A stretch of DNA of 64,000 nucleotides, taken from Spiroplasma clarkii. Its GTDB lineage: Bacteria; Bacillota_I; Bacilli_A; Mycoplasmatales; Mycoplasmataceae. The position numbers were made by a program, and so were the translations under genes. Positions 23,255-59,440 of this stretch are shown one piece after another. The stretch is taken from assembly GCF_002795265.1 (NCBI RefSeq), contig NZ_CP024870.1, positions 1 through 64,000 on the forward strand. The letters are read 5' to 3'. The notes beneath the pieces were generated by a model. That model did not search any database and had not been told where the DNA came from. It saw only the letters and a list, made by a program, of their open reading frames with translations. The first letter of the stretch is position 1. Each line of letters begins with the position of its first letter.

Positions 23255-23274
23255 TATCAAAACAAATTTGGACT
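23255..23274 (+). repeat. left terminal inverted-repeat motif of the IS
   Basis: TATCAAAACAAATTTGGACT, 5 bases inside the left edge. Its exact complement occurs at 24748-24767. Confidence 0.8.
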
Positions 23275-23312
23275 TTTAGTAATTTTAATACAACTTTTAA
23301 TAAATTGCTAGT

Positions 23313-24713
23313 TTAATAGGAGTGCTTTTTATATCAACTTGAGTATTTTTTCTTAAAAAAGATAAAGTTTGATTGAGCTCAGACAGAGTTGTTTTTAATT
23401 TTTTGTGGCATATCTTCAGGTTTCACTCCTTCATTTTCAAGAACAACTTTTGATTTGTAGAGCATTTCATTATCAAATTCAATCATACTATAATAGTTAT
23501 CACCAAGTGATGCGATAAGGTTACCATCACAACATTGAATTATCATAATCTCTCGTCTAGGTATATTTAATGGTGTTGTGAAATTGCATATAAAGTACTT
23601 TTTCTTTTCATAGGTAACAGTTAGATCTCTTGCAACCACTCTAATTGATTTGTGTCCCAAAATAATATTTAGATCTCCCTCAAATTTTTTGAATGAATTT
23701 GTAGTAAAATCTTTTTGAAGGGTTACAACATGATTATTTAAATACTCAACAAATTTTGGTAAGACTAGATTGGCCTCATTAATATTTGTGACTTTATTTT
23801 GTTCCATAAAGGTAGTGATTGTACCTTTAATGGTTTTTCAGAGCCTTTCAATCCTTGGTTTGAATTGTGGTGAAATTGATGATTGGATGTCAATACCTAA
23901 GTTTTTAGCTACAAATGCAAACTGAATTCGAGAATCTTCGGGCGAAGATTCTTTTTTTTCACTCCAAAAAGTTCTGCGTTTGTCAGTTCTTAGCACTTCA
24001 AAAGTCCCATAATTTTTTAAGACCGGTTTCAAAGCATTGAAATAACCTTCAGTAGTTTCTTGATGATCAAAATATAATCCTAAAACCTCTCCACTTGCCT
24101 CATCAATATAACCATGCAATGCCCAAATCTCCTCATCACTGAATCTTCAAAATGTAGCATCAGCTTCAACAACATGACCACGCCTTTGGGTTCTTGGCCT
24201 TGCAATATGGATATTTTCTTTTGCTCTTTCTGTAGCTGAGGAGGGAACCAGTAGACTTTGAGGTCTATTTTTCAACTCTTCTTCTTTTGCTAACAATTTG
24301 ATAGTTTTTTTATGTGCCAGTTTTGAGCAATGATTTTTAGATCTTAAAATATTGTAAATATATGAATAACCCACCCACTGATAGTCATATCTTTTATCTG
24401 CTTTTAAATAGCGCATAAAATCCCTAAAATTACAGTTTAAGTACTCATCCCTAAAAATCCTGCTAATCTCTAGTGCTTGCATATGGGTTCGCTTTTGAGC
24501 ATGCTTATTGTTTTTATTTTTGTGGATAAAGAAGGCCTCACCAATTTCTTTGTATTTTTTAATGGCATCATAAAACCATGATCTACTACCACCACTTTTT
24601 ATCAAAAGTTCTCTTTTGGCTGCTTTATCCCTGGATAAAGCAGCCTCCCTAATAATATCTTGTATATGTTTGTTGGTTTTCATTTGTCTTTTACCTCTAT
24701 AATTTCTTTTCAT
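23313..24713 (-). CDS. IS1202-like DDE transposase (ISNCY family)
   Basis: With TGA as Trp the minus strand gives one frame of 466 residues. It has an N-terminal helix-turn-helix region (RDKAAKRELLIKSGGSRSWFYD), then a DDE core: VVEADATFWRF (first Asp), LRTDKRRTFW (second Asp) and FKPRIERLW (Glu), with LHGYIDEASGEVLGLYFDHQET between, as in IS1202-type enzymes. The start is ATG 24713 or ATG 24683 (AGAGG upstream); the TTG/ATG at 24797 lies in the terminal repeat. The frame is unbroken, so the enzyme looks intact. Half of its Trp codons are TGG, more than in its neighbours. Confidence 0.88.
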
Positions 24714-24747
24714 TTTTATTCCCTGATTTCCTTTATTATTATAATCA

Positions 24748-24793
24748 AGTCCAAATTTGTTTTGATAACATTTAGTCCTTTTTTGTTTTGATA
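24748..24793 (-). repeat. right end of the IS with two copies of the terminal motif
   Basis: The complement of TATCAAAACAAATTTGGACT lies at 24748-24767. A second copy with 3 mismatches (read outward-in, TATCAAAACAAAAAAGGACT) lies at 24774-24793, a 26-bp pitch. The left end has only one copy. The outer copy aligns with the IS tip. Confidence 0.75.
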
Positions 24794-29105: not shown

Positions 29106-29132
29106 AAAATACCTTAATAAAGGTATTTTTTG
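29106..29132 (+). terminator. terminator after the lipoprotein gene
   Basis: AAAATACCTT (29106-29115) and AAGGTATTTT (29120-29129) form a perfect stem with loop AATA, followed by T residues. Confidence 0.8.
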
Positions 29133-29202
29133 CATTCCTTTATTGTTTAAATCAAATATAATTTATGAGATAATAATTTAAGATTGAACTTGGAGGTAAA
29201 CT

Positions 29203-32200
29203 ATGAAATTCTACATAAAAAGAGATAAAGAGATGTATGTTGTAGTTGATGCATTGATAAATCAACCAGTTGCCTCTTTTATTGATGAGCAAGATGCTCA
29301 CAAATTTATCCAGTCTTTAATAAAATTGCCTACCAAAAAAGCTCCCTTTGAATTTATTAACAAAACTTTTCCTGGCAAAATGAATCTGGTTACTGATGAG
29401 GGACAAACTCAAGAATGGTCAAAACAAAAGTTTAATGCAAATGATTTAACTGATAAAAAGTTTTTACAAGAAACCATCAGAAATATTAATAATAAAACCA
29501 ATTCTCAAAAAAACTATATGAAAAGTTTTGAACAAGAGAGAATTGATGAAAACTTCATTCGCCGAATTGTTGCTGAAATGCAATTAGATTTTTTATTAAA
29601 ACAAGGTCAACAAATTGTTCAAGTTAAAGAACCAATTTACATTGGAGGTTATCCGCAATCTGCCAGCAGAAATGAAAACTTTAGTGATCGATGACAAGAT
29701 GACTATGATAATAAAAAAAGCCAACAGATCAATCGTTCAAGACAAAGAAATTACTTTGAGAACATAGAGGATATGGAAGAAAATTACATTAACCAGCACA
29801 ACAACAGAGTTAATAATAATTTTGATGAGTTTAGTAATGATTCTAGATCCCAAGCTCGTTACAATGATTATCAACAAGCCAGAAACTATGAAGCAGACAC
29901 TACTAACCAAAGCTATCAACAACAAAGTCGCCATAAAAACCAGGCTGAAAGATATGCAAATTCAAGTGCAGATAGCCAACAATATCAAAATCGCTTTGAC
30001 TCGAAGTTTGACAACCATTATGATGAAACTGCTGAAAATAAAAGAAGATACAATCAAAGACAAGATTTTGCTGATACCAACAAATCACAAAGTTCATTTG
30101 ATGCTAGAAACCAAAGTGCTCATGATTCAAGAGTGGGGAATACAGCCTCAAATCATGATGAACAAAAAAGCTATGAAATGAATCAAGCAAAGTCTAATAA
30201 TAGAATGTGAAATGAAGAGAGAAATTCTAATAATCTAAATGATAGAAGATTCGATGAGGAATATAGCAACCAAAGAGGATTTAGATCAAAAAACACAAAT
30301 GCCATGGATGAAAATTATCAAGAAGCATTGCGCAAAGAGAAACAAAAATTTCAAAACCAAGAAGACATTGTTGATAACAATGATTTTAGTGCTTCTCAAA
30401 GTTCATATAAGAACCAAAGACAAAATGAAGCAAACAGAGAATGAAATGATCAAAACCATTATTTAGATAATAATTCAAGAAATTATCAAAATCATTCAAA
30501 TAAAAGAGACAACTATGCTAATGGAAATAGCAATAATCAAAGTACTTTGAATAATGAAAAATTAAATAGAAGTCGAAGCAATTCTGATGAGCGTGGAAAC
30601 GAAAGCAACAATAGTCATTCTAGTGATGAGGAGTACTATTCGAATAATAATGATCACCGAGATTCTCAAAGCAGTTCAAAGTTTAACGACTCAGCACATG
30701 ATGATTATTTAGGAGTTAATGATAAAAATTCAAGATCAACAAAATCAGAAGACAGTAACTCTAAATATGACAAAAAAAAATCAAATCAAAATAAATTTCA
30801 AGCATCAAGAGATGGCAATGATTTTTCAGACAGCAGCAACTATCAAAATTCAAAAAATGATTCTAGATTTAATGATTCAAAAAATAATTTGAGATCTAAT
30901 CAAAACAAATCTGACTCAGCACATAATGACTATTCAGAAGACAATAATAAAAATTCAAGATCTACAAAATCAAAATCAATGAGAAGCAATGATGATTTTT
31001 CAGAAGATAGAGATTATCAAAGTGGATCTGAATTTGGCAACTCAAAAAATGAATATGATTCAAAATCTAAATATGATAAAAAAGATTCATCATATAACAA
31101 TCGCTTTAATGAAAATTCAAATAAAAACAGATCTCAAACATCAAGGGATGACAATGATTTTTCAGACAGCATCAACTATCAAAATTCAAAAAATAATTTG
31201 AGATCTAATCAAAACAAATCTGCATCAGAATCTGAATTCGACAAAAGAAACTTGGCAAACAAATCTGACTCAGCACATGATGATTATTTAGAAGCTAATA
31301 ATAAAAATTCAAAATCTGCTAGCAACTTTGATTATTCTGATAATGTTTCAAATCAAAATAAATCAAAATCAATGAAAAGCAATGATGATTATTCAGATGA
31401 CAGAGATTATCAAAGTAACTCTGAATTTGATAGTTCAAAAAATGAATATGATTCAAAAGCTAAATATGACAAAAGAAATTCATCATATGATAATCGTTTT
31501 GATGAAAACTCAAATAAAAACAAATCTCAAGCATCAAGGGATGACAATGATTTTTCAGACAGCAATGACTATCAAAATTCAAAAAATGATTCTAGATTTA
31601 ATGATTCAAAAAATAATTTGAGATCTAATCAAAACAAATCTGCATCAGAATCTGAATTCGACAAAAGAAACTTGGCCAACAAATCTGACTCAGCACATGA
31701 TTACTATTCAGAAGACAACAATAAAAATTCAAGATCTGCAAAATCAAAATCTGATAGTGATTTTGATAATGTTTCAAATCAAAATAAATCAAAATCAATG
31801 AGAAGCAATGATGACTATTCAGAAGACAAAGATTATCAAAGTAACTCTGAATTTGATAGTTCAAAAAATGAATATGATTCAAAATCTAAATATGACAAAA
31901 AAAATTCAAATCAAAACAAATCTCAAGCATCAAGGGATGGCAATGATTTTGCAGATAGCAACAACTATCAAAATTCAAAAAACGGTTTGAGATCTAATCA
32001 AAACAAATCTGACTCAGAACATGATGATTACTTAGACAATGATTTAGATCAAAACAGATTTCAATCAATGAAAGAAAGCAAAAACCTTAGAGATAGTAAT
32101 GAGTATCAAAATTCTAATGAAAATTATCAACAAGAGAGTAAGTTTAATAACAAAGATGTAAACAAACAAAAAGATTTTAGAGAAAATAGTGATATTGTTG

Positions 32201-35200
32201 ATAACAATGATTTTAGTGATTCTCTAAGTAAACAAGGTGCAAGAGCAGCCAACAGTAATTGAAATACTGAAGATGCTAAATTTTTTGAAGATGCAGTCAA
32301 TGCTCAATTAAGCAGAGAAAAAGAAAACAACAACAAAAAAGCCAAGAGTGCTGAATCAGATCTTGTTGAATCAAGAGGTGCTAATGAAAAAAAACAAATA
32401 GTTGTAGATTCAGATACAAACAGAATAAGTGATGAGGATTTTCATGCTGATGATTCAAATACTGAAGAGTTTGTTGCTAACTTCGAAGAGGTTGCAAGTA
32501 AAAAACAAAATAAAAAACAAATTGATGCAAATGATTCAAACCAATCAGGAGTCAAATTAGCAGAAGATACTGATAAATTAGAAGCTAAGCCATTGAGTTG
32601 TAAAGAAAAAAAACTTGAAGAAAAAAAATTAAAAAAATTAGAAAAAGAAAGAAGACAAACCAAAAAACAAGATGAACTTGTAACTGAGCAAGAAAACAAT
32701 GATCAAGAATACTTTGTTGATGATCAAAAACTAGAAGCTTTAATTGCAAAAATGAATGATAAACAAAAGGACACCTCATTTTTAAAAATTGATTCAGATG
32801 AAGCAGATGCTGAATCTAACTTAAAAAACAAAAGCATTGAAGAAACTTTAAAAAATAAAGACAAAGACACCAATGCCAAAAATGTCACTAGAGATAATGC
32901 TGATGCAAAATCAGAAGTCGATGATCAAATTAGTGAAGCTATGAAATTACTTGAAGATAGTTCAGAAACTGAACCACAAAGAAACGCAAAAGATAAAAAT
33001 TCTGCAAAAAAAAGCAAAGCAAATATTGAAGACAATCAAGATGGCAAAGACGCAATTCCAGGAAATAAAACTGATGATAATATTGATATTTCTTCACCAA
33101 GAGAACTTTATTCTTCATTAATCAACACTGAAGATTTTGATGACCAAATACAACAAACATCACCAAAATCTGCTCGAGCAAATAGAAAATCACCATCATC
33201 AAAATCAGTACCGCCAATTTATAATGAACCAGAGGAATTGTTGGGAAACAGAGATGGAGTGATTGATTTTAGAAATGAAGCACAAATTAGCGATCCTGAA
33301 ATTCAACAAAAAAATAAGGACTACTGAAGTTCAGATTGAAGAAAACCAGTTAAATCAAATACAAGTTCAGAACAAGAGTTTAATTCAAATGATGATGAAG
33401 CTGAGTTGAAAAATAAACCCTCAATGAGAAAACTAAATGAAGCATTTGCACAAAGCCAAGGTAAGTCTAAGAAAAGTGCCAATGCAAATGACACAATTGA
33501 TGACTTTTATGATGATGACTATATTGATGAAACCAACAAAGAGAAATTATCAAATGCAAGAGGGAGTGAAAATTCTGCTGAACAATATTTTGGAGATAGA
33601 CAACTTAAAAATCTTGATTCAAATTCTAGACCTTCACAATTTACTGGTAAAAATAAAGATGCAGAATATAAAAACCAAAATTTAGCAAATAACAATGGAG
33701 ATTATGATGACCATGATTTTTATGCTACACCAATAAGCAATAAAGATGCAGTTAAAAATTTAGATGATGAAAGAAATCAATTAAGTAGACAAAATCAAAA
33801 TGATAAAGCTACTTCTGGAAAGAATAAAACCAATCTCGGAAATAAAGGTGCAAGAACTTTTACAAGCCCAAATGATTCAGACTATGTTAATAATCTTGAA
33901 GACTACAATCAAACTCCATCAAGTCAAAGAGCAATGGGGAAACAAAATAGCAAAACACCATTAGGTCAATACCCCAACGATTTTAGAAATTCTGATTCAG
34001 GTTATGGTGATGTTAACAATCCCCAACAAACTGCTTCTGACATGAGAGCCCAAGGTCTTCAAGGTGACCCAAGTTATTTAGCAAATGATCAAAATCAATC
34101 AGCTAGAAGAAATCAAAATAACAACGCCCCAATGAATCAAGACCTTAATGATTTTAACCAAGCAGAAAATTACAAAGATGCTTCTGGAAAAAATAAAAAC
34201 AATCTTGGGAATAAAGGTTCAAGAACTTTTACAAATCCAAATGACTTAGACAATGCTAATAATTTTGAAAACTATAATCAAACTCTGCTGGACCAAAGAG
34301 CAATGGGAAAACAAGGCGACCCAAGATATCTAGCAAATGACCCAAATCAATTCGACAAAGAAAACCAAAATGGCAAAGCACCATTAGGCCAACATCCAAA
34401 TGACTTTAGAAATTCAGGCTATGGTGATGTTAACAATCCCCAACAAACAGATTCTGACATGAGAGCCCAAGGTCTTCAAGGTGACCCAAGATATTTAGCA
34501 AATGATCAAAATCAATCAGCTAGAAGAAATCAAAATAACAATGCCCCAATGAGTCAAGATCCAAAAGGTTTTGCAAGTCAGTTTAACAATGAAGGTGCAA
34601 GACTAAACCCTCTAACCCAAAATCAAGTAAATCCAAGCTATGATGAGGATATTGATGATTTCTATGATGACTACAAAACAGACCCAACTCCAAAATCACT
34701 GAAAAATATAGCCAACAATCTGCAAAATGATGATGACTTTTATGAAGATGATGTAACTGAATTTGATGATAATGGGCTTGAAACTAATTTAATTAATCTT
34801 GAAGAGGCAGTTCAACCAAGTCAAAATTATGGTAAAGTTTCAAGAGGAATTGGTAATGCTTATGGAAAAAACAAAAACCAAGAGCCATTGCCCCCAGGTA
34901 CCCTAGATCCAAGTCAAAACCAACAGTCAGGAGTTTCAAGCCTACAAGGCAAACCTGCAAATCAATATCTTGGCAACCAACCAAATTATAATCAAGGTTC
35001 AAAACAATATCAAAGTGAAATTGATCAATTGAGGGCAAAACAAAGAGGCGGTCAAGGTTATGATGGATTGGATAGAGAACACCTATTAAATCAGCAGTTA
35101 CCAACAGGTTATCCAGTAAATGTAGCAATTCAAAAATATGGAATTGATTATGAAAAATTGGGGTATAGAGACTATCAACCACCCCAAGCCCAGAACCATG

Positions 35201-35832
35201 CAAAAAACTTGCTTCAAAACACTGAAAGCAGTGATATTAACTTTAAGCAAAACTACCAACAGTCTGCAAAATCAGCAACTGTTGATGATTATTTAAAATA
35301 CTCTGCTTCATCTCCATATATAAGCAATGGGGAATACAATGAAACATTATTCGGTGAACAAATGTTATTTGGTGGAATTATGAAATTTAACAATAATGCC
35401 GATGATGATAGTTTGGGTGAAGTGGCTGCTTTTTCAAGTGTTAAAACTATGCAGCCAAAACCTGCTGTAAGGACTCAAATCACCCCTCAACAACCAGTAA
35501 CACCAAAGCCAGTAAATGATTGAAGTCGTGATTTACCTTCACTTGATGAGTTACATGAACAAATGCAAGCAAAACCACCAGCATTTTCTCAACCAGCAAC
35601 ACCAAAACCAGCACTTGAAAATCCAGCTCCGCAACAGGAAGTAAAACCAAGTAAAGATCCAAATGTGCTGGACTTAGGACCCATTGATGAAGAAGATGAT
35701 ATATTTTCAACTCCAAGAAGTGATTTGGATAAAACAAGTGATGATAAATTAACCAAAGAAGAGATGAAAGCATTGAAAAAAATTCGCAAAGACCAAGAAA
35801 AAAACCGCAACAGAAAAGCAAAGGGGTTCTAG
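29203..35832 (+). CDS. giant low-complexity repeat protein (2209 residues), unknown function
   Basis: One frame of 2210 codons without TAA or TAG. Residues 1 to about 165 look folded (MKFYIKRDKEMYVVVDALIN...). The rest is Asn/Ser/Asp/Lys/Gln-rich and predicted disordered. Block A (about 496-960) holds tandem units starting DSAHDDY; block B (about 1537-1786) holds two long copies with NKGSRTFTNPND and MRAQGLQGDP. Asp/Tyr clusters (IDDFYDDDY, DDDFYEDD) recur. A Lys/Glu helix lies near 1130, and the C terminus is basic (KALKKIRKDQEKNRNRKAKGF). No signal peptide, membrane segment or LPXTG is visible, so a cytoplasmic scaffold is likelier than an adhesin, but that is inference. ung starts one base after its stop. 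Confidence 0.85.
30688..32040 (+). repeat. tandem coding repeat block A
   Basis: Units beginning with the codons for DSAHDDY start at 30688, 30913, 31267, 31687 and 32011 (lengths 225, 354, 420 and 324 bases). Units two and three share long near-identical runs, for example 31201-31286 and 31621-31706 at a 420-base offset. Confidence 0.85.
33811..34560 (+). repeat. direct coding repeat block B
   Basis: Two copies, about 33811-34140 and 34180-34560. Each runs from a (T/A)SGKNK-NLGNKG segment through GYGDVNNPQQT to NQSARRNQNNNAPM. The second has an internal extra GDPRYLAND segment. Confidence 0.8.
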
Positions 35833-35833
35833 T

Positions 35834-36502
35834 ATGATTGGTGAATTATTTGCAAATTTAGATCTTGAGTGGTTAGAACTTTTTGAAAGAATTAATGCCA
35901 AAGAAGAAATTACTTCAATTTTGTCAAGAATAACAAATTTTGAAGAAGTATACCCAGATCAAGCAGATATTTTTAGAGTTTTTCAACTTGTAAAACCCTC
36001 AGCAATTAAGGTTGTGATTTTGGGTCAAGACCCATATCATGGTCCAAATCAAGCAAATGGGATTGCTTTTAGTGTTAAAACTGGGGTAAAAATGCCACCA
36101 AGCTTACGCAATATCTTTAGGGAATTAAAATCAGATTTAAACATAGATCGGACTGAAACTGATCTCTCAGATTGGGTAAAACAAGGAGTTTTCTTGTTAA
36201 ATTCAAGTTTAACAGTTCAAAAAAATAAACCCGGATCACATTCCAAATTAGGTTGAGAAAACATCATAATTAAAATTTTACAAGAGTTATGCACAATAAA
36301 CCCGAAAATAATTTTTTGTTTATGGGGAAATCAAGCAAAAAAGATTTATAATAATATAAGATGCATTGGAGTAGAAGTGTTGGCCTCAGCCCATCCCTCT
36401 CCATTCAGTTTTAAGAGAGGTTTTGAAAACTCAAAGCCATTTTCTAAAATTAATGCACTATTATTCGCTAACAATCAGTCGGTCATAAAATGAAGCAACT
36501 AG
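35834..36502 (+). CDS. ung: uracil-DNA glycosylase
   Basis: Removes uracil from DNA, the first step of base excision repair. The 222-residue product carries the catalytic water-activating motif GQDPYHGPNQANGIAFSV and the DNA-intercalating HPSPFSFKRGFENSKPFSKIN (family HPSPLS). The last 80 residues lie beyond a TGA-Trp at 36254. The gene starts one base after the giant repeat gene, so it depends on that transcript and on translation reaching its end. Confidence 0.95.
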
Positions 36503-57844: not shown

Positions 57845-59440
57845 ATGAAAAAAATGATATCATTGCTTAGCGCAATGGCAATTACAGCATCGTCAGTATC
57901 TGCAGTAGCAGCATGTGGCGGTGGAAACGACAATGAAATTATTGTCCAAATGAACAAACAATGAGTTGATGCATACAATCCAGCGATTACTGCAATCAAT
58001 GCAAAATTTGAATCATTGGGACTTGACTTCCGTGCAAAAACTAAAGAACTTGATGTTTTTGACAACTATGACAACATAGGTAAAAAAGGTGTTAGAGATA
58101 AAAACACACCAGATATTTTTATGTTAGGTTATGATAGATATCAAGGTTATAAAGCGCAAAACAATATTAAAGATTTATCAAGTGAGATAAAATCAGTATT
58201 AATTAAAGAAACAGCAAAACAAGAAAAATATGGTCTAACTATTGAAAATGATAAGATTCAAATTACTCAATCTCATTTAGCAACAAGTACATGAGAAGGA
58301 GCAAGAATTGCTCAATCAGGTGCTGATGACTATTATGGTATGGTTCCAGCATGAATTGAAAATTTAATATGAATTTTTGACAAAGATAAACTTGGGATTG
58401 AAGATGGAAAACTTGTTGGAAGTTATGTTGAAGATTATAGAACTGATCTTGAACTTGGTGATGATCCAGTAGTTTCTCTTGAAAATCTTGCAAAAATAAA
58501 TAGAAAAGCAGAGAAAACTGTTGGTTATTTTAGAACTGTTGATGGATATTATGCTGGAAATGCCCTAAATGGAGTATTACATGCAAATGAAGATAAAATA
58601 ACTCCTGTTACAGGCTCTTCAAAAGCAATTGTTTATCAAAAAACAGGAACTCATCCATCTGAAAATAAAGATGATTTTAGTTCAATTTGAGAAGAGGCAT
58701 CAACAGTTGAAGCCTTCAATAAGGCAGCAGATACATTAGTAGATATTGGATTTTCATATGGTAGTGATATGCGTGAAGCAACATATGGGAAAACATCTGA
58801 TGATGCATTATTACAAGCTCTTACAGCTAAAATAAAAGCCGGAGAAACTGTTATGTCAGTTTTAGGACCATGAGATTTACAATCATATAAAACTTTAATG
58901 GAAGAAAATGACAGAACTCCTAATTTAGGAATTGCAAGTATATCATCAATGCAAATTACAAATACTGTAGCTGATGGTAAGTTATCTGGATTTGCTGGTG
59001 GGTATGGATATGTTGTAAAATCAACAATTTCTAATAAAGTCAACCAAACAAATGATGGTGATGAAATTACTAAAACACAAGCAGCAATGATGGTTATAGA
59101 TGAGCTTGCAAAAAAAGATTATGCAACCGATCTTGCAAAAGGTGATGGAAAATACTCAACATATCAAGATAATATTGATAAAGCTTATAAGGACTTTAGT
59201 GATACTGAAGGTATGGAGTTGTTTGCACAAGCAATTGAACAGATTTCATTTAGTTACAATGATGGTGGAGTAACAGCTCGTCCAAATACAAGTCTATTTG
59301 ATATTTATTGAGCAGCATGAGCAGATAACTATAGATTATCTATGAATCCTGCTTGAACTTTGGACCATGCCAAAACTGAGTTCAGAAAACTTTTCAATAA
59401 CAAATGAGACACTGATAAAGCCGCATATGTATGAGGTTAG
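57845..59440 (+). CDS. carbohydrate ABC transporter substrate-binding lipoprotein
   Basis: A 531-residue extracellular solute-binding protein. The signal peptide MKKMISLLSAMAITASSVSA ends in a lipobox with the lipidated Cys at residue 24 (VAACGGG). The mature part has the family-1 (MalE-like) layout, with DIFMLGYDRYQ, GMVPAWIENLIWIFDKDKL, VMSVLGPWDLQSYK and SGFAGGYGYVVK. TGA-Trp codons break it repeatedly under the standard code. Permease genes follow. The sugar is not identifiable by eye; an oligosaccharide or maltodextrin type is likely. Confidence 0.88.

Follow-up and report, generated by a model that had tools for sequence, protein, structure and literature searches.

An enlarged, largely disordered protein of Spiroplasma clarkii with a conserved N-terminal module: a possible cytoplasmic tether

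The reading frame and the predicted protein

What kind of protein is encoded by a single gene that occupies 6630 of the 64,000 bases (10.4%) of the analyzed stretch of the Spiroplasma clarkii chromosome (hereafter the window), and what might such a protein do in the cell? Under NCBI translation table 4 (TGA=Trp), positions 29203..35832 of the plus strand form one open frame that codes for 2209 aa (254 kDa) and includes seven in-frame TGA codons, whereas translation with table 11 breaks the interval into several ORFs. The longest open run in 200 base shuffles had a mean of 100 and a maximum of 180 codons, and the remaining five frames of the interval contain 52-181 stops. The claim of an initial annotation that one open gene of 2210 codons fills more than 10% of the window is thus confirmed. 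Its term "minimal-type genome" applies only loosely, because this genome (1.56 Mb) is the largest of the 20 in the genus considered here. The window begins at dnaA (1-1320, confirmed); it therefore covers the chromosome start and probably the origin region. Two further features of the window are an insertion sequence upstream of rpsF (23255-24767), which is bounded by perfect 21-nt inverted repeats and carries a minus-strand, ISNCY-like transposase gene (178.8 bits, below the family cut-off), and a TGA-rich lipoprotein-type gene of 531 aa (57845-59440) with a MOLPALP-like N-terminus (23 bits only).

The start of the giant-protein gene is preceded at a distance of 5 nt by a strong Shine-Dalgarno sequence, GGAGGT (29192..29197, plus strand). 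Between this gene and the lipoprotein gene upstream, a terminator-like element follows the 3' end of the latter (29106..29129, plus strand). It consists of an AT-rich, perfect 10-bp inverted repeat and a T-run, and is absent from a terminator scan that demanded three G-C pairs. A promoter-like sequence, TTTAAA-17-GATAAT with TG ahead of the second hexamer, was found by motif scan at 29146..29174 (plus strand), but this call is weak because such sites are no more frequent in the region than in shuffles. Downstream, ung (35834..36502, plus strand) starts only 1 nt past the stop of the giant-protein gene, which therefore probably heads a transcript shared with ung, the gene of an ECF transporter S component, cysS, and rlmB.

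The first 40 residues (29203..29322) constitute a small folded domain, the N-module, for which AlphaFold2 predicts three strands (residues 3-8, 11-16, and 21-26) and a helix (29-40) with pLDDT 96-98, and which is kept in all orthologs. Residues ~82-138 (29446..29616) are predicted to form helices with middling confidence and are not seen in a short ortholog; the remainder of residues 1-163 is of low confidence. A folded N-terminus had been anticipated and is borne out, but its confident part comprises just residues 1-40 and not about 165. From residue 161 to 2100 the FoldIndex is at or below zero, in line with the roughly 2000 low-complexity residues described previously. This linker changes in composition from N/S/D/K-rich in zone 1 (residues 161-1000; 29683..32202; repeat families D1-D4, D7, and D9) to K/D/E-rich in zone 2 (residues 1001-1420; 32203..33462) and N/D/Q/G-rich in zone 3 (residues 1421-1950; 33463..35052; repeat families D5, D6, D8, D10, and D11). 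Compared with shuffles, zone 1 has its aromatic residues at more regular distances (z -3.7), a pattern that may come from the repeats alone. Toward the C-terminus, comparison with orthologs revealed a conserved acidic motif, ...NADDDSLGEVAAF (residues ~2040-2078; 35320..35436), and a second conserved motif, DPNVLDLGPIDEEDDIFSTPRSDLD (residues ~2150-2178; 35650..35736; C-terminal profile match E 1.1e-18). They are followed by a basic tail (residues 2180-2209; 35740..35829), whose matching region in the short ortholog of genome G017 is a predicted helix (pLDDT 80-88). The protein is acidic overall (pI 5.0), with only the last ~30 residues basic. No hydrophobic transmembrane stretch was detected in the 2209 aa, and with the N-terminus taken up by the folded module a signal peptide or lipobox is not apparent. 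The earlier picture of an N-terminal domain, repeats, and a basic end without a membrane signal thus holds, but it overlooked the two conserved C-terminal motifs and the existence of short orthologs.

Scans of the complete protein against Pfam and NCBIfam gave insignificant matches only (no Pfam family at E<=0.1, at the sensitivity of sequence-profile searches), as did Pfam scans of 17 N-modules, and the best hit of a PDB sequence profile search had E 0.36. Structural comparison with the PDB using Foldseek and VIA-align retrieved a common small arrangement and nothing further: 2k7i and the N-terminal domain of lambda integrase (1z1b) share the strand-strand-strand-helix order of the N-module, but with E 0.35 and Z at most 4.8 a relation is not claimed. 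The 2k7i structure presumably represents the YegP/UPF0339-type small fold. A search of the literature found no described disordered scaffold of Spiroplasma. The N-module thus appears to be an undescribed domain, and by analogy the giant protein may be counted, as a kind, among the disordered bacterial scaffold proteins.

Orthologs at the locus and expansion of the linker

With residues 1-158 as query against 40 genomes, all 19 congeners were matched and no genome outside the genus. Every match opens an intact code-4 gene that lies, like the gene in the window, between a lipoprotein gene and ung, and the order dnaB-lipoprotein-gene-ung-ecfS-cysS-rlmB is found in 19/19 congeners. A profile built from these orthologs, leaving out the window protein, located the gene in five additional genomes (G024, G041, G042, G064, and G065), and a further ortholog (G063) was added by reading syntenic stretches. 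Outside the genus, orthologs thus occur at the same place in six genomes of four neighboring genera (g6, g17, g18, and g20). The same profile matches the window protein both at the C-terminus (E 2.7e-17; DDDSLGE, DLGPxxEEDxIFSTPR, and the basic tail are present) and at the N-module (E 2.2e-14); a profile of the N-module alone gives E 8.6e-18, with the window protein itself among the seeds. At this locus 24/25 relatives are intact and have the same three-module plan, and the only split copy, interrupted by a frame change, is in a draft assembly of 80 contigs (G042). These data support the earlier argument that the gene is under selection, and they speak against a locus littered with frameshifted remnants.

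The members of this family (family A) share the N-module consensus MNYYIKFxNNxYxVVDGNTNxVIASFxSExDAHKFxQSLF, a mid motif that ends INNTDDDSLGExxAY, and a C-terminal motif, IDLGPxxEEDEIFSTPRxDA, followed by a basic segment. Mid motif and DLGP motif hold invariant residues across 14 diverse alignment rows, although DLGP is present and STPR gone in three g20 genomes, and the DLGP-STPR part is doubled in G008 and G012. In the AlphaFold2 model of a 358-residue ortholog, the confident parts are just the N-module and a C-terminal helix (residues 333-357). Judged by sequence and position, the giant protein is an enlarged copy of this short three-part protein at the same locus.

The enlargement concerns the linker. 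Orthologs have 356-876 residues, and the first linker, from the N-module to the mid motif, measures 1991 residues in the window protein versus 96-439 elsewhere. Its sequence is not conserved among orthologs; the composition is Q/N/P/S/Y-rich in most of them and N/S/D/K-rich in the window protein. Direct repeats of 50-243 nt recur within the gene; their spacing is about 336-426 nt for those of zone 1 and 165-423 nt for those of zone 3. The 2209-residue form therefore reflects duplication of repeats, which enlarged the linker in this lineage specifically within a family otherwise of 350-880 residues, and the large size is peculiar to the S. clarkii genome and not to family A. The C-terminal motifs are conserved in frame ~2000 codons past the expansion, which implies that the full length is translated.

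Whether the added length matters is less certain. It is possible, though somewhat doubtful, that the linker owes its length to near-neutral expansion of repeats in a single genome, so that the N-module and the C-terminal motifs alone work and the length is functionless. Only the S. clarkii genome has the 2209-residue form and its relatives suffice with the shorter ones, the linker sequence is unconserved, and dN/dS of several repeat pairs approaches or exceeds 0.5-1 (individual pairs range from 0.22 to 1.3). However, seven repeat pairs pooled give pN 0.088 and pS 0.169 (pN/pS about 0.5, a rough figure as the pairs overlap), which suggests that the linker is not drifting freely and is under some constraint, if not strongly conserved. 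Moreover, the frame is held through 2210 codons and the composition remains hydrophobic-poor. Such an expansion can also be compatible with the tether function discussed below.

The N-module in other proteins and the MreB set

A core profile of family A that contains no rows from the citri clade (g19) gave weak matches, at one place each, in 9/14 g19 genomes (E 4.5e-4 to 0.049). The matched protein, of 310-430 residues and encoded near rplI and dnaB, resembles family A in its homologous N-module, disordered P/Q-rich linker, basic C-terminal segment, and nearby locus. In contrast to family A, it lacks TDDDSLGE and DLGP...STPR, occupies a different place, and has features of its own, a SSPQVFFIQQPA block and a Cys/His-rich stretch. 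Profile comparison (hhalign) aligned the two groups over the N-module only (E 3.2e-5). The citri-clade protein may be either orthologous or paralogous to family A.

A module profile that includes citri-clade and other paralogs, and whose seeds score by construction, found at a firm E-value at least one N-module copy in 40/60 genomes of the bacterial family and in 40/320 genomes of the order. No copy was found outside the Spiroplasma lineage among the 320 order genomes or in phage and plasmid records, and beyond the order there was one borderline match. Two weak matches in G067 proved unrelated on inspection. In a genome of another Bacilli family (G434), the gene L259 (1003-1914) encodes a C-terminal stretch similar to the N-module (YIVRFDNSIKKYVIFDPSEEQLAASFIDLKSAEKFAKSL; E 2.6e-5). 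A second soluble N-module family, with its own C-terminal motif, also exists. The S. clarkii genome has two adjacent N-module genes of this kind (L121, 5949-7446; G000:663948-665445), the second of which codes for a repeat of the VEKIVEKP type and, at the C-terminus, a LTPTELNNFISKLE motif common to proteins in other genomes. At L075, L076, L077, and L122, N-module genes are located immediately 3' of large lipoprotein-type genes as a recurrent pair.

Paralogs with a single membrane segment and a basic N-terminal flank occur in G009, G015, and G017, and that of G015 has Ig-like matches on the outer side. By the positive-inside rule, the N-module of these proteins is predicted to be cytoplasmic. 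Three membrane-anchored proteins, 901-1016 aa long and with an N-module on the inner side, encoded at L124 (1378-4083, minus strand), L125 (4196-7114, plus strand), and L126 (1625-4675, minus strand), have repeated, partly Ig-like outer domains and are candidate surface proteins.

The distribution of the N-module largely parallels that of an expanded MreB set, defined as 4-9 PF06723 matches with a best E below 1e-126. This set is present in 42 genomes of the bacterial family; the N-module occurs in 40/42 of them and in 0/18 genomes without the set. In the genera without MreB, dnaB and usually the lipoprotein gene are followed by ung or ecfS, with no room for the gene. In an rpoB tree the MreB-lacking clade, whose unity is fully supported, is nested within the N-module carriers, the citri clade is outermost, and g21 sits on a separate branch. 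The small genomes of g21 (G066 and G067) have several PF06723 matches and lack the N-module; in G066, ung is missing too between the lipoprotein and ecfS genes. The N-module looks ancestral, lost on the branch of MreB loss and lost separately in the MreB-keeping g21. The association with MreB thus amounts to about one supporting and one opposing event and not to 60 independent points. One match to the MreB_Mbl profile (E 2.4e-61) was observed in G022 of g4, a genus that otherwise lacks strong matches to MreB, and may represent a lone or remnant copy or else a related protein. PF01048 was dropped as a proxy for fibril, since it mixes nucleosidases with possible fibril.

In the loci read, mreB was never adjacent to the giant-protein gene. 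The fibril and SMreB proteins of the Spiroplasma ribbon (PMC9582952, PMC5289999) belong to the same broad lineage as the family described here, but they are folded filament proteins. The giant protein has no Pfam match to MreB, or to an actin-like or nucleosidase-like domain, and does not appear in the published ribbon lists. The genome taken as S. eriocheiris encodes an N-module protein of 47.9 kDa and 425-429 residues, and nothing in the lists of Triton-insoluble and ribbon proteins of this species (PMC5289999 Table 1, PMC9582952 Table 2) fits it by size or description. With 14 and 5 gel bands as their source, these lists may have missed the protein.

Possible role in the cell cortex

It is plausible, and proposed here tentatively, that the giant protein is a cytoplasmic, disordered, and multivalent tether or scaffold that docks through its N-module to a structure of the cell cortex. 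The N-module would bind a common cytoplasmic structure there, because membrane-anchored surface proteins are predicted to carry the same module on their cytoplasmic side. Both acidic motifs may bind partners as short linear motifs, and the basic C-terminal helix could hold acidic lipid or nucleic acid. The linker, with its aromatics evenly spread through zone 1, would set reach and multivalency and could also support condensates. The structure served might, with less confidence, belong to or adjoin the cytoskeleton that is based on MreB in helical cells. A more far-reaching hypothesis makes the N-module a cytoplasmic domain for docking to the helical cytoskeleton of Spiroplasma, common to disordered tethers and transmembrane surface proteins and connecting membrane and cell surface with the MreB ribbon; at present this appears unlikely. 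The initial annotation had considered a cytoskeletal scaffold or a condensate-forming protein. A real, selected, and largely disordered cytoplasmic protein is what the intact three-module relatives support, while the role itself is inferred from a distribution that follows the MreB-keeping lineage and from the cytoplasmic-side paralogs.

Alternatively, the protein might form condensates or act as a spacer apart from the cytoskeleton, as a prion-like Q/N-rich assembly that, for example, binds RNA or the nucleoid via the basic C-terminus and uses the N-module for oligomerization. The Q/N/P/S/Y-rich ortholog linkers with tandem repeats, the basic helical tail, and the aromatic spacing are consistent with this idea, but conservation of the acidic motifs points to specific partners and an N-module on membrane proteins suits cortical docking more than nucleoid binding, so that we consider it rather unlikely. 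It is less probable still that lipoproteins or adhesins are organized or anchored by N-module proteins from within the cell, independently of MreB, with the upstream lipoprotein gene providing the partner. A lipoprotein gene does lie directly upstream at the locus throughout the genus and before several other N-module genes, and the transmembrane paralogs carry Ig-like repeats. However, the upstream lipoprotein gene persists in G073, G071, G040, and G066, which have no copy of the giant-protein gene; the two are thus not strictly linked, and a lipoprotein offers no portion in the cytoplasm for binding.

The parallel with other mollicutes and their terminal-organelle proteins, also drawn earlier, survives only as an analogy. 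Mycoplasma pneumoniae P65, an assembly part of the attachment-organelle core, is disordered over residues 1-217 and forms a multimer (PMC11940719). Both P65 and the giant protein are cytoplasmic proteins of mollicutes in which a long disordered region lies beside structured parts, and the disorder and size of the giant protein resemble P65 and the HMW proteins. P65, however, has N-terminal disorder and C-terminal coiled coils, whereas the giant protein has an N-terminal fold and belongs to another lineage. No sequence relation was found between the two, nor did the giant protein yield an EAGR box or other Pfam match, and the N-module is confined to the Spiroplasma lineage among the 320 order genomes. 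Homology to HMW1, P65, or TopJ is therefore highly improbable.

For the tether proposed above, the N-module offers a concrete bait for a missing factor that would couple membrane and surface to the helical MreB ribbon in Spiroplasma, whose ribbon parts list derives from gel bands of one clade. The module is small, foldable, and lineage-wide, and it occurs in disordered cytoplasmic proteins as well as on the inner side of surface proteins. The putative tether encoded in the window exceeds every other one found by more than a factor of two in length, and the range of 356-2209 residues with conserved ends constitutes a natural series for the effect of linker length in a disordered scaffold.
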